DNA of 50,386 nt from positions 1-50,386 of the forward strand of contig JAGBNC010000029.1 in assembly GCA_017634595.1 (NCBI GenBank). Reading direction: 5' to 3'. Positions 31,780-42,942 of the stretch are shown one piece after another (positions within the stretch are counted from its first letter, which is position 1; every line of letters begins with the position of its first letter). Below the pieces are notes generated by a model that did no database searches, was not told where the DNA came from, and was given only the letters and a program-made list of their open reading frames with translations. Origin of the DNA: Bacteroidales bacterium (GTDB lineage: Bacteria; Bacteroidota; Bacteroidia; Bacteroidales; UBA932). A program made the position numbers and the translations under genes.

Positions 31780-32832
31780 ATGACTGGGAACGAAATACTT
31801 AAGCTCCTTTCCGAGGTCCGTCACCCAGCCCGAGGCGACCGTGACATTGTGGAACTCGGAATGGTCAACTCGATCGATACCGACGGCGGAGTGCGCGTTG
31901 TCCTGGGCTTTCCCAAGCGGCGCGACCCGCTTGCTGAATATCTTATTGGCGCAACCCGTGCAGCGCTTATTCGCGGCGGCGTCAAGGATCCGAAGGTGGA
32001 TACTGTTGTGCTCGAAGATGCGGCTCCCAAAAAGAAGGGGCTGGAGTTCGACACCGAGTGCCTTCGCAATGTGCGCCATATTGTCGGAGTGGCCTCCGGA
32101 AAAGGCGGCGTGGGTAAATCCACTGTCGCGGTCAACCTTGCCTGCGCCCTTGCGCGCCTGGGCTACAAGGTGGGCCTGGCCGATGCCGATGTGTACGGTC
32201 CTTCGGTGCCGCTTATGACCGGTACCGAGGGGGCGTCGCCCATGGCGGAAGAGCAGGACGGCAAGGAGCTCATAATCCCGCTTGAGAAATATGGGGTGAA
32301 GTGGATGAGCATAGGCTACTTCGCTGAGCGGGGACAGGCGCTGATATGGCGCGGTCCCATGGCATGCAATGCTTTGAAGCAGATGATATTGCAGGTCAAA
32401 TGGGGAGTGCTTGACTTCCTCCTGATCGATATGCCTCCAGGTACCGGCGACATCCACATCAGCTTGCTGCAGGATATCCCAGTCGAGGGGGCCATTCTGG
32501 TGACCACGCCTCAGGAAGTGGCGCTGGCTGATGTTGAGAAAGGTGCCAATATGTTCCGCAACAAGGGCATCGAGAGGCCTATCTTCGGCCTGGTTGAAAA
32601 CATGGCCTGGTTCACTCCGGCCGAGCATCCTGACGAGAAGTACTATATTTTCGGCAAGGATGGCGGGGCGCACATGGCGGAGGACCTTGGAATTGAGCTG
32701 CTCGGGCGTATTCCGCTGGTGCAGAGCATACGTGAAAGCGGTGACTCCGGCGAGCCGGCTGCGCTGGGCACGCGTCCTGACGCTCAGGCTTTCCTCGATC
32801 TGGCCGCACGCCTGGCATCCAAACTCGGCTGA
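31780..32832 (+). CDS. Mrp/NBP35-type iron-sulfur cluster carrier ATPase
   Basis: This 350-residue protein has an N-terminal MIP18/DUF59 domain (1-85) and a MinD-like P-loop domain with the deviant Walker A GKGGVGKST. Later it shows DMPPGTGDIHI and ENMAWFTPAEHP. Mrp proteins hold and deliver Fe-S clusters in the cytoplasm. The CxxC pair seen in some relatives is replaced by TPAEHP here, which is common in Bacteroidota. The stop TGA shares its A with the start of rsmA. Confidence 0.93.
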   Translation: MTGNEILKLLSEVRHPARGDRDIVELGMVNSIDTDGGVRVVLGFPKRRDPLAEYLIGATRAALIRGGVKDPKVDTVVLEDAAPKKKGLEFDTECLRNVRHIVGVASGKGGVGKSTVAVNLACALARLGYKVGLADADVYGPSVPLMTGTEGASPMAEEQDGKELIIPLEKYGVKWMSIGYFAERGQALIWRGPMACNALKQMILQVKWGVLDFLLIDMPPGTGDIHISLLQDIPVEGAILVTTPQEVALADVEKGANMFRNKGIERPIFGLVENMAWFTPAEHPDEKYYIFGKDGGAHMAEDLGIELLGRIPLVQSIRESGDSGEPAALGTRPDAQAFLDLAARLASKLG

Positions 32833-32834
32833 TG

Positions 32835-33680
32835 ATGGAAGTTAGAGCCAAGAAAGCGCTGGGGCAGCATTTTCTGACTGACCAGTCCATAGCCCGGCGC
32901 ATAGTCGAAACACTTTCCGAGGGCGCGGGACCCTCCCGTTCACATGGCCACGGGCGGCCATGGTTCTGCGGGGCAGACGCGCCCTCAGAAAGAGTAAGTA
33001 GTGTGCGTGACGTTCTTGAAATAGGACCGGGAATGGGAGTGCTGACCCAGTACCTGCTGCAGAGGGAAGATATTGACCTGAAGGCAGTTGAACTGGACGG
33101 CGAGTCGGTGGACTATCTGCTGATGCATTTCCCCGGCATCCAGGGCCGCCTGCTTCAGGCCGATTACCTTCGTCTGCCCATGGATAAGGTCTTTCCGGGC
33201 CCGTACCGCATAATCGGCAACTTCCCTTATAATATATCCTCCCAGATCTTTTTCAAGATTCTGGACGACAAGGACCGCGTGCCCGAAGTGGTGTGTATGG
33301 TGCAGAAGGAGGTTGCCGAGCGTATTGCCGAGAAGCCGGGCAGCAAGACATACGGAATCCTGAGCGTGCTGCTGCAGGCCTGGTACGACATAGAATACTG
33401 CTTCACAGTGGGGTCCGGTGCTTTCAGCCCGCAGCCCAAGGTGCAGTCGGCGGTGATACGCCTGGTGCGCAATTCGCGAACGAGCCTCGGCTGCGACGAG
33501 AAGTTGTTCCGCCAGGTGGTGAAAACCGCTTTCAATCAGAGGCGCAAGACCCTGCGCAATGCCCTCAAGCCATTGGTGCCGGAAGCTCAGTCTCTGAGTT
33601 CCGACTTGCTTGACCTGAGGGCGGAACGCTTGGGTGTAGAAGATTTCGTGGCTCTTACTGAGGCTGTTGCTGCCCTATAA
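32835..33680 (+). CDS. rsmA: 16S rRNA dimethyladenosine transferase with palindromic insert
   Basis: This 281-residue KsgA methylates the two adjacent adenines in the 3' hairpin of 16S rRNA. KKALGQHFLTD is at 6-16, the SAM motif EIGPGMG at 62-68 and the catalytic NFPYNISS further on. Between TLS (26-28) and VLEIGPG there are about 25 residues more than in other KsgA proteins, rich in Gly, Ser, His and Arg. They come from a 68-bp palindromic element at 32919-32986 that keeps the frame. ATG at 32832 is an alternative start, one codon upstream. The 3' end overlaps the convergent vWA gene by 26 bp. Confidence 0.95.
   Translation: MEVRAKKALGQHFLTDQSIARRIVETLSEGAGPSRSHGHGRPWFCGADAPSERVSSVRDVLEIGPGMGVLTQYLLQREDIDLKAVELDGESVDYLLMHFPGIQGRLLQADYLRLPMDKVFPGPYRIIGNFPYNISSQIFFKILDDKDRVPEVVCMVQKEVAERIAEKPGSKTYGILSVLLQAWYDIEYCFTVGSGAFSPQPKVQSAVIRLVRNSRTSLGCDEKLFRQVVKTAFNQRRKTLRNALKPLVPEAQSLSSDLLDLRAERLGVEDFVALTEAVAAL
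32919..32986. repeat. Palindromic element inserted in frame in rsmA
   Basis: The outer 9-bp arms are perfect: GAGGGCGCG (32919-32927) and CGCGCCCTC (32978-32986). Three smaller hairpins lie inside: GGGA-ccc-TCCC (32927-32937), CATGGCC-6 nt-GGCCATG (32943-32962) and TCTGC-ggg-GCAGA (32965-32977). It thus folds as a cloverleaf. It shares an ordered core, CCCTCCC..TCAC..GGC and GCAGACG, with the element at 42801-42942. Confidence 0.85.
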
Positions 33681-41842: not shown

Positions 41843-42796
41843 ATGAAGAAATACACTGACCAGGGTAAGGTAGATACCCGAAGCGGCTTCGGAGCGGGGC
41901 TCCTTGAGGCCGGACGCAAGGACAGCCGCGTCCTTGCACTTACCGCGGACCTTAAGGGCTCGCTCAAGATGGACGCTTTTGCGGCCGAATTCCCCGATAG
42001 ATTCATCCAATGCGGTATCGCTGAGGCCAATATGGTGGGCGCCGCAGCTGGTCTGGCAATTGCCGGCAAGATTCCGTTCATCGGCTCCTTCGCCGAGTTC
42101 GTCACAGGCCGTGTATACGACCAGCTCCGCCAGGAAGTGGCTTATGGCCACACCAATGTGAAAATCGCGTCTTCGCACGCCGGAATCACCCTGGGCGAGG
42201 ACGGCGCGACGCACCAGACTATGGAGGACATCGCCCTTATGCGCGCCCTTCCCGGTATGGCTGTCGTGGCTCCGTGCGACTTTAACCAGACCAAGCAGGC
42301 CACCATTGCCGCCGCCGAGTGGGACGGTCCCGTGTACCTTCGTTTCGGTCGCCCCGCGGTGCCCAATTTCACCGACCCTGACGCTCCCTTTGAGATCGGC
42401 AAGGTGTACAATATGAACGAGGGCAAGGACGTTACCATCCTGACCTGCGGCCACCTTGTGTGGGAGGCCCTGCAGGCCGCGGAAGCCCTTGAGGCTGAAG
42501 GCATCAGCGCCGAAGTGCTCAATGTGGCCACTATCAAGCCCCTCGACGAGGAGACCGTGCTCGCGTCTTTAAGGAAGACCCGTTGCGCCGTGGTGGCGGA
42601 GGAACACAATGCCGCCGGCGGTCTGGGTGAGGCCATCGCAAGCCTTGCCACGGCGAAACTGCCTACGGCAATTGAATTCGTGAACGGTCAGGACAAATTT
42701 GGCCAGTCGGGTACTCCCGCCGAGCTGATGAAGGCCTGGGGCTTCGACGCCGCACATCTGGCAGAGGCCGCTAAGAAGGCCATTGCACGTAAATAA
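41843..42796 (+). CDS. Transketolase, C-terminal subunit
   Basis: The 317-residue partner contains the pyrimidine-binding domain with the catalytic Glu in CGIAEANMVGAAAGLA, the phosphate-binding SHAGITLGEDGATHQ, and the C-terminal transketolase domain (VYNMNEGKDVTILTCGHL). It functions only with the N-terminal subunit. The cloverleaf-like palindrome starts 4 bp after its stop. Confidence 0.94.
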   Translation: MKKYTDQGKVDTRSGFGAGLLEAGRKDSRVLALTADLKGSLKMDAFAAEFPDRFIQCGIAEANMVGAAAGLAIAGKIPFIGSFAEFVTGRVYDQLRQEVAYGHTNVKIASSHAGITLGEDGATHQTMEDIALMRALPGMAVVAPCDFNQTKQATIAAAEWDGPVYLRFGRPAVPNFTDPDAPFEIGKVYNMNEGKDVTILTCGHLVWEALQAAEALEAEGISAEVLNVATIKPLDEETVLASLRKTRCAVVAEEHNAAGGLGEAIASLATAKLPTAIEFVNGQDKFGQSGTPAELMKAWGFDAAHLAEAAKKAIARK

Positions 42797-42800
42797 TTTA

Positions 42801-42942
42801 TTTCCAGCAGGGGGCAGGGGGGCTGGCTGCAGACTACGCCCCTTCGGGGCTATCCCTCCCATCGCGAGCGATGGGCCCCTCCCACTCACGGCTGCGTGGG
42901 CGCAGACGGTCTGCAGCCAGTCCCCCTGCCCCCTGCTGAAAT
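42801..42942. repeat. Cloverleaf-like palindromic element
   Basis: The outer arms 42801-42834 and 42909-42942 pair over about 33 bp with one mismatch and one bulge. Three hairpins lie inside: GCCCC-ttc-GGGGC (42838-42850), CCCATCGC-ga-GCGATGGG (42858-42875) and CCCAC...GTGGG (42881-42900). It fills the gap between the transketolase genes and the next plus-strand gene, so it is transcribed. The core CCCTCCCACTCACGGC (42877-42892) and GCAGACG (42902-42908) recur in the rsmA insert. Confidence 0.9.

Follow-up and report, generated by a model that had tools for sequence, protein, structure and literature searches.

An in-frame palindromic insert in rsmA of a Bacteroidales bacterium belongs to a genus-wide family of pseudoknotted hairpin repeats with mostly copy-specific arms

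The window analyzed here, a 50,386-nucleotide stretch of a Bacteroidales contig (JAGBNC010000029.1), encodes on its plus strand (32,832..33,680) a 282-aa 16S rRNA dimethyladenosine transferase (RsmA/KsgA), which matched the ksgA family TIGR00755 with 236.8 bits against a cut-off of 171. This was the only full-length rsmA/ksgA match found in its own genome, as a second match was short, antisense and located over an insert within the gene itself. The initial annotation had described this insert as an in-frame palindrome that lengthens the protein by about 25 residues, placed after the N-terminal helix and before SAM motif I. Both its sequence and its frame were as claimed, and the excess was confirmed, with motif I, when counted from an equivalent start, lying at residue 61 in the window protein compared to residue 36 in relatives that have no insert (e.g., L068 and L069).

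All features of the insert lie on the plus strand. Its outer stem (P0) is formed by a left arm, CTTTCCGAGGGCGCG (32,913..32,927), which pairs with a right arm, CGCGCCCTCAGAAAG (32,978..32,992), with one mismatch. The stem therefore reaches 15 bp and the element, arms included, covers 32,913..32,992 and not the 68 bp originally proposed, within which the perfect 9-bp stem (32,919..32,927 with 32,978..32,986) was nonetheless correctly identified. Three internal hairpins, described together with that stem, are found in the DNA minimum fold only; the DNA centroid shows two, and the minimum for RNA is a nested structure. The core was located at 32,910..32,965 by covariance model R2 (53.3 bits, E 7.9e-11). 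It includes the pseudoknot 5' strand CCCGT (32,935..32,939), which co-varies with the P3 loop across the family; the P3 hairpin CATGGCC-ACGGGC-GGCCATG (32,943..32,962), which folds and whose pairs also co-vary across the family; and, in the P3 loop, the pseudoknot 3' strand ACGGG (32,950..32,954). A small hairpin, CTGC-GGG-GCAG (32,966..32,976), is present in the right half in the DNA minimum fold. The P1 hairpin is missing, as is the first (5') half of P2, and four of the eight P2 pairs are unformed in the R2 match. Beside the full copies in L065 and L067, this rsmA copy looks like a shortened, deletion-derived form. When folded as RNA, neither positions 32,919-32,986 (z -4.0) nor 32,911-32,997 (z -5.0) were equaled by any of 200 dinucleotide shuffles, and folding 32,919-32,986 as DNA gave a z of -2.85, with 1 of 200 shuffles as low.

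AlphaFold2 modeling of RsmA on 55 rows produced a mean pLDDT of 89.7, with values below 50 at residues 1-5, 31-33 and 35-48 and an average of at least 91 in ten-residue blocks from residue 61 onward. In this model, the insert lies between helix 17-26 and the first beta strand (59-63) and is predicted to be a low-confidence loop, which bears on the initial suggestion to check by folding for a surface loop. The best-matching stretches of solved RsmA relatives start at residue 52 to 60.

Although first treated as an isolated insertion, the element belongs to a genus-wide repeat family. A search of the host genome, suggested at the outset, retrieved six further copies with blastn and 23 copies in total with R2 (E ≤ 1e-4). 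The first covariance model, R1, was built from 25 of 27 parsed copies, leaving out L008 (misparsed) and L024 (a near-copy of L011); four loci lacking the left half were not parsed, and L013, L021 and L061 were used without their leading bases. The second, R2, was built from 72 matches. Removing duplicates and short flanks from 155 matches produced 143 non-redundant copies, of which those outside the own genome are mostly best scorers and no random sample, with rsmA and aroB loci fetched by protein. Nearly all genomes with record titles are MAGs. Within the genus, R1 matched 99 of 121 sampled genomes (E ≤ 0.001). Within an order-level sample of 198 genomes, matches at E ≤ 1e-4 were found in four, namely the own genome, one from another genus of the same family and two from other families; a further genome of the same genus in this sample had no match at this threshold.

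R2 matched the window twice, once in rsmA and once at an intergenic copy (42,852..42,911, plus strand; 70.1 bits, E 9.3e-15) with a type B core and the pseudoknot CCCAC/GTGGG. The left (42,805..42,834) and right (42,909..42,938) arms of this second copy (L142), both on the plus strand and ~30 bp long, pair with each other, and the complete unit (42,805-42,938) sits between the next ORF and the stop of ORF 41,843-42,796, whose product appears by eye to be transketolase C-terminal-like.

Searches with the core gave no match in phage records at E ≤ 0.01 and partial matches of 36-41 bases in six Azospirillum plasmids among the plasmid records. Most of 55 IMG/VR stretches (L236-L290) hold a similar repeat, CCCTCA-CCCTCCCA-hairpin-TGGGCCCCTCCC-TCTCCC, often with several copies per contig. 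This repeat has the P2 hairpin of the present family, with identical flanks, but a different right half, TCTCCC..GGGAGAGG, and the resemblance of the IMG/VR and Azospirillum repeats to the core may reflect either homology or convergence. Against Rfam, four copy-bearing loci matched only two microRNA models at E ≤ 1, far below gathering scores, and five IMG/VR loci matched only sub-threshold models (microRNAs, a snoRNA and an sRNA).

A full copy is ordered as arm, P1 hairpin, TCCCTCCCA, P2 hairpin, TGGGCCCCTCCC, NN, P3 hairpin and arm'. Across P2, P3 and the pseudoknot, 45 cells were changed on both sides, compared to 15.3 after shuffling and 1 to 11 with slid partners. The pseudoknot, in which the P3 loop pairs with the CCCNN strand after P2, was perfect in 128 of the 131 copies that could be parsed (of 143) and occurred in five combinations (GT/AC, 97; AT/AT, 14; TC/GA, 13; AC/GT, 3; CC/GG, 1); of the three imperfect cases, one pairs by wobble and two are unpaired. 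Shuffles, which leave the kinship among copies in place, gave a mean of 76 and a maximum of 87 perfect pseudoknots. The core is also G+C-rich and leaves four or five of the six frames open in each of three consensi, which would make many insertions into surface loops tolerable. Selection for open frames was not seen, as their number is close to our own estimate of the G+C expectation.

At rsmA, the core was present within the gene in nine of 80 loci from the genome collection (six plus, three minus) and just upstream in one more. Among the matches listed, it was also found at rsmA in L028, L029 and L350, beyond the collection loci. Most of the closest relatives by rsmA are Bacteroidales MAGs from rumen and gut; some bear the title Candidatus Cryptobacteroides, which is therefore the probable name of the genus. 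All 80 loci, which were found by protein match, are open to motif I, and in the nine with the core the frame is kept and no stop is introduced. The prediction that sister proteins would lack the insert was borne out by 71 of 80 loci without the core in the gene; the opposite case, in which the same residues recur throughout the order while the DNA palindrome is not conserved, did not hold. In a tree of 50 RsmA rows, built with the loop left out, the window protein is placed in a clade of five rows (99/93) that includes three minus-orientation rows and one row without the core, and each of these states may reflect gain, loss or inversion of the core. Other repeat-like inserts were observed at the same site in L053, L065-L067, L070, L096, L104 and L115, with peptides like RSEATQGVSGGTPPVP, LSQKDGKG and STPLHPQGGLRGVPLRH, which suggests that several palindromic families may have a common landing site in rsmA.

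Copies are not restricted to this protein. Of 20 own copies whose surroundings were examined (L150, the 21st, was left out), five lie in recognized proteins, namely RsmA, AroB, AroE-AroK, PrmC and an EamA transporter; in L143, L151 and L154, the open frame matches Pfam but the copy is close to one of its ends, and its place in the gene is unsure. Of 122 copies with flanks of 900 nt or more on both sides, 43 are spanned by a frame that is open for at least 60 aa on both sides. By our reading (Pfam, with AroB and RsmA assigned by homology), 31 of these frames are recognized proteins and 12 are not. In addition to the five above, the hosts, whose names within the Pfam families are presumed, are TrmB-like, DnaX, UDP-glucose dehydrogenase, radical SAM YgiQ-like, RibF, ferredoxin-type, GHMP kinase, RlmI-like and other methyltransferases, PmbA/TldD, THUMP-like, Mur ligase, GH3, TilS-like and TsaD-family proteins. 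Because the sample consists of best scorers and protein-fetched loci, these counts should not be read as rates across the genome, and any copy that disrupts its gene would go uncounted. Two copies within one open frame were observed in L180 (dnaX of G089) and L352 (a Mur ligase of G071).

AroB carries different elements in one loop depending on the species: a plus-orientation type C element in the own genome and minus-orientation elements in two others. The copy lies between GHTIGHA and HGE, which we take to be catalytic motifs, and in AroB proteins that lack an insert this loop is about six to eleven residues long. In G043 aroB (L190), two elements of opposite orientation were observed side by side, in frame.

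Copies thus occur in either orientation, between as well as inside genes. At two intergenic sites of G007, related genomes provided the empty form, judged by eye and with no core found by R2: L233 is empty in G042 and G090, and L235 is empty in G063 and G077. At both sites, the core and both arms are absent together. The L235 place is filled in G080 by an element in the opposite orientation with different arms. A long palindrome of similar architecture, whose centre differs and which has arms of its own, occupies the same place in G024 (L409), where R2 finds no core.

Flank complementarity exceeded the 99th percentile of mismatched flank pairs in 135 of 143 copies (median score 21 vs 6.5), and the median arm length was 30 nt in the 125 copies scoring at least 14. 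Within one copy, the two arms show a median complementarity of 91% (87 copies), and arms are mostly specific to their copy. For pairs of copies within a genome, arm identity, measured on the inner 24 nt, had a median of 0.67 (range 0.50-1.00) where cores were at least 97% identical (8 pairs) and of 0.58 where cores were 90-97% identical (49 pairs), against a background of 0.46 between genomes. The clearest case is provided by four G007 copies, with cores 98-100% identical and arms (inner 24 nt) 50-67% identical. Exceptions are ten G089 copies with core and arms in common and the G064 copies, which have a common skeleton. Orthologous copies of G088 and G003 have near-identical arms among the matches listed. 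In the six plus-orientation rsmA orthologues, the arms co-vary, with two-sided changes in 11 of 26 pairs and in 19 cells compared to 7.8 cells after shuffling.

Two possible sources of the arms were considered. An inverted copy of the target flank, suggested by the overlap of the rsmA arm ends with the conserved (T)LS or PV codons, is not seen at the two intergenic empty sites and stands only as a candidate. The clues conflict in this respect, as both arms are new at those two sites, whereas in rsmA the outer arm end overlaps conserved codons (on the left in L029, L056 and the window, on the right in L110). Copying from elsewhere in the genome was set aside, since the two arms searched were each found only at their own copy: the L233 arm in eight genomes (including G007, which is 61% complete) and the own aroB arm in the own genome. 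A strand bias, with more G than C in the left arm of 70 of 115 uneven copies (p 0.025), is too weak to use.

Taken together, the element is probably a non-autonomous mobile hairpin repeat, which in rsmA would be translated in place as a disordered linker. The inserted unit would consist of the conserved pseudoknotted core together with its ~30-bp inverted-repeat arms, and copies landing in genes would survive when the frame is kept and no stop is brought in. After insertion, the arms would stay complementary while their sequence changes, through template switching by DNA polymerase, which we infer to be the best account of arms that are complementary yet changing. Template switching is described as homogenizing inverted-repeat arms and inverting spacers in yeast genes (PMC8604942), and as creating and maintaining hairpin stems (PMC8794818).

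A selected cis-acting RNA structure, such as an mRNA stabilizer or 3' end element kept by the host, with in-gene copies as by-products, would fit the location of most examined own copies outside recognized proteins (5 of 20 inside), the co-variation of arms at an orthologous place and the ten G089 copies with a common core and arms. Nevertheless, the same place is filled or empty in related genomes, both orientations occur at one site and many copies lie in coding regions, and we regard this explanation as unlikely. Less probable still is removal of the insert at the RNA level by self-splicing, or its skipping by the ribosome through programmed bypassing, in which case the core would be a signal and the protein would have normal length. 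The folded, pseudoknotted core and the position of copies next to presumed catalytic motifs, as in AroB, are in keeping with such a process. In the mobile bypassing element of mitochondria (byp), the insert is untranslated, so that its frame and stops are free. Here, 80 rsmA loci are open to motif I and 31 recognized proteins are open through the copy, neither of which splicing or bypassing would require, although frame-breaking copies may be missed in a list picked by open frames or protein match. The four loci compared to Rfam gave no useful match, and the structure prediction shows a plain loop for the insert within a protein that otherwise folds well. Finally, a native RsmA extension carrying a chance palindrome is already refuted: perfect 9-bp stems with 40-60 nt spacing are by themselves not rare (9 in the window vs 3-12 in six Markov controls), but the rsmA palindrome stands above chance because homologous copies exist elsewhere in the genome, and orthologues lack the core.

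Template switching alone does not account for unrelated arms around identical cores. It is conceivable, if somewhat doubtful, that each insertion event makes its own perfect ~30-bp arms and so builds a new palindrome around the conserved pseudoknotted core, through a process such as snap-back synthesis on single-stranded DNA that has been captured. In keeping with this are the four G007 copies with near-identical cores and divergent arms, the absence of both arms in empty relatives at two of those four sites, and the two searched arms, each seen at its own copy alone (one of them with the 61% complete G007 among the genomes searched). If arms were made at each insertion, the arm-sharing copies of G089 and G064 would be later duplications of whole units. 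Such a route, building a new palindrome each time, would be unlike any transposition known to us.

The foremost guess as to the mobilizer, though a weak one, is a RAYT-like transposase of the Y1/HUH type that would act in trans. PF01797 (Y1 transposase) matched 89 of 121 genus genomes at E ≤ 0.001, with 79 over the cut-off, and was present in 80 of 99 copy-bearing compared to 9 of 22 copy-free genomes (Fisher p 3e-4, uncorrected for kinship or genome quality). The number of RAYT-like hits correlated with copy number across the 121 genomes (Spearman 0.45, likewise uncorrected). Conversely, 19 of 99 copy-bearing genomes had no PF01797 hit. A REPtron, in which the RAYT gene is flanked by copies, was looked for but not established, as copies occurred within about 1.5 kb in only one of 31 PF01797 loci (L307).

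Several known systems resemble this family. The Rickettsia palindromic elements (RPE) and the coding palindromes of Wolbachia are hairpin repeats of 105-146 bp found between genes and in frame in conserved genes, and one product, a guanylate kinase, is reported to have been shown active (PMC2229807). The present family likewise combines hairpin repeats between genes with in-frame copies in conserved genes; it differs in occurring in another phylum and in its pseudoknotted core, and arms that mostly vary from copy to copy may be a further difference. Although an RPE model exists in NCBIfam, none of the 21 NCBIfam families that RsmA matched at E ≤ 0.001 is named RPE, in a comparison of protein only. 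The parallel with RPE drawn in the initial annotation is accordingly one of behavior and does not establish family membership. GTAG/CGTC REPs are palindromes of 20-40 bp that often lie just 3' of genes; some are found within ORFs, and sister species can have them at roughly the same position (PMC3733652). In contrast to REPs, these tags are not constant here: GTAG occurred anywhere in 56 of 143 copies (51 shuffled) and CGTC in 56 (96 shuffled), with GTAG at one fixed place (the P3 foot, minus strand) in 19 of 143, and copies were near RAYT-like genes in one of 31 loci. MITEs such as ERIC and NEMIS are described in PMC2229807 as non-autonomous elements below 200 bp that form in-frame fusions. 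The element here would also be non-autonomous, is in the same size range and is found in in-frame fusions. MITE terminal repeats are common to the copies, whereas the arms here are present in 135 of 143 copies yet mostly not common between them. In Nematomorpha mitochondria, coding genes contain long perfect inverted repeats whose two arms each code for conserved protein, and the abstract of that report (PMC6649704) makes no mention of a mobile core.

Among open-licence papers, we found no report for this genus, nor of a pseudoknotted core with copy-specific arms, and the core sequence used as a literature query returned only papers of unrelated title. In-frame palindromes are already known from RPE and from intragenic REPs in several genera; what is novel is the question of where arms specific to each copy come from. 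For annotation, the family is a warning that such loops are not conserved protein domains. Until now, coding palindromes were an oddity confined to Rickettsia, Wolbachia and certain genomes rich in REPs. In the gut genus studied here, such a family is present in most of the genomes sampled and has copies in many housekeeping proteins, and because dozens of related genomes provide filled, empty and both-orientation sites, three old questions become testable: how folded DNA invades genes, how much insertion a housekeeping enzyme tolerates, and whether template switching remakes hairpin arms.
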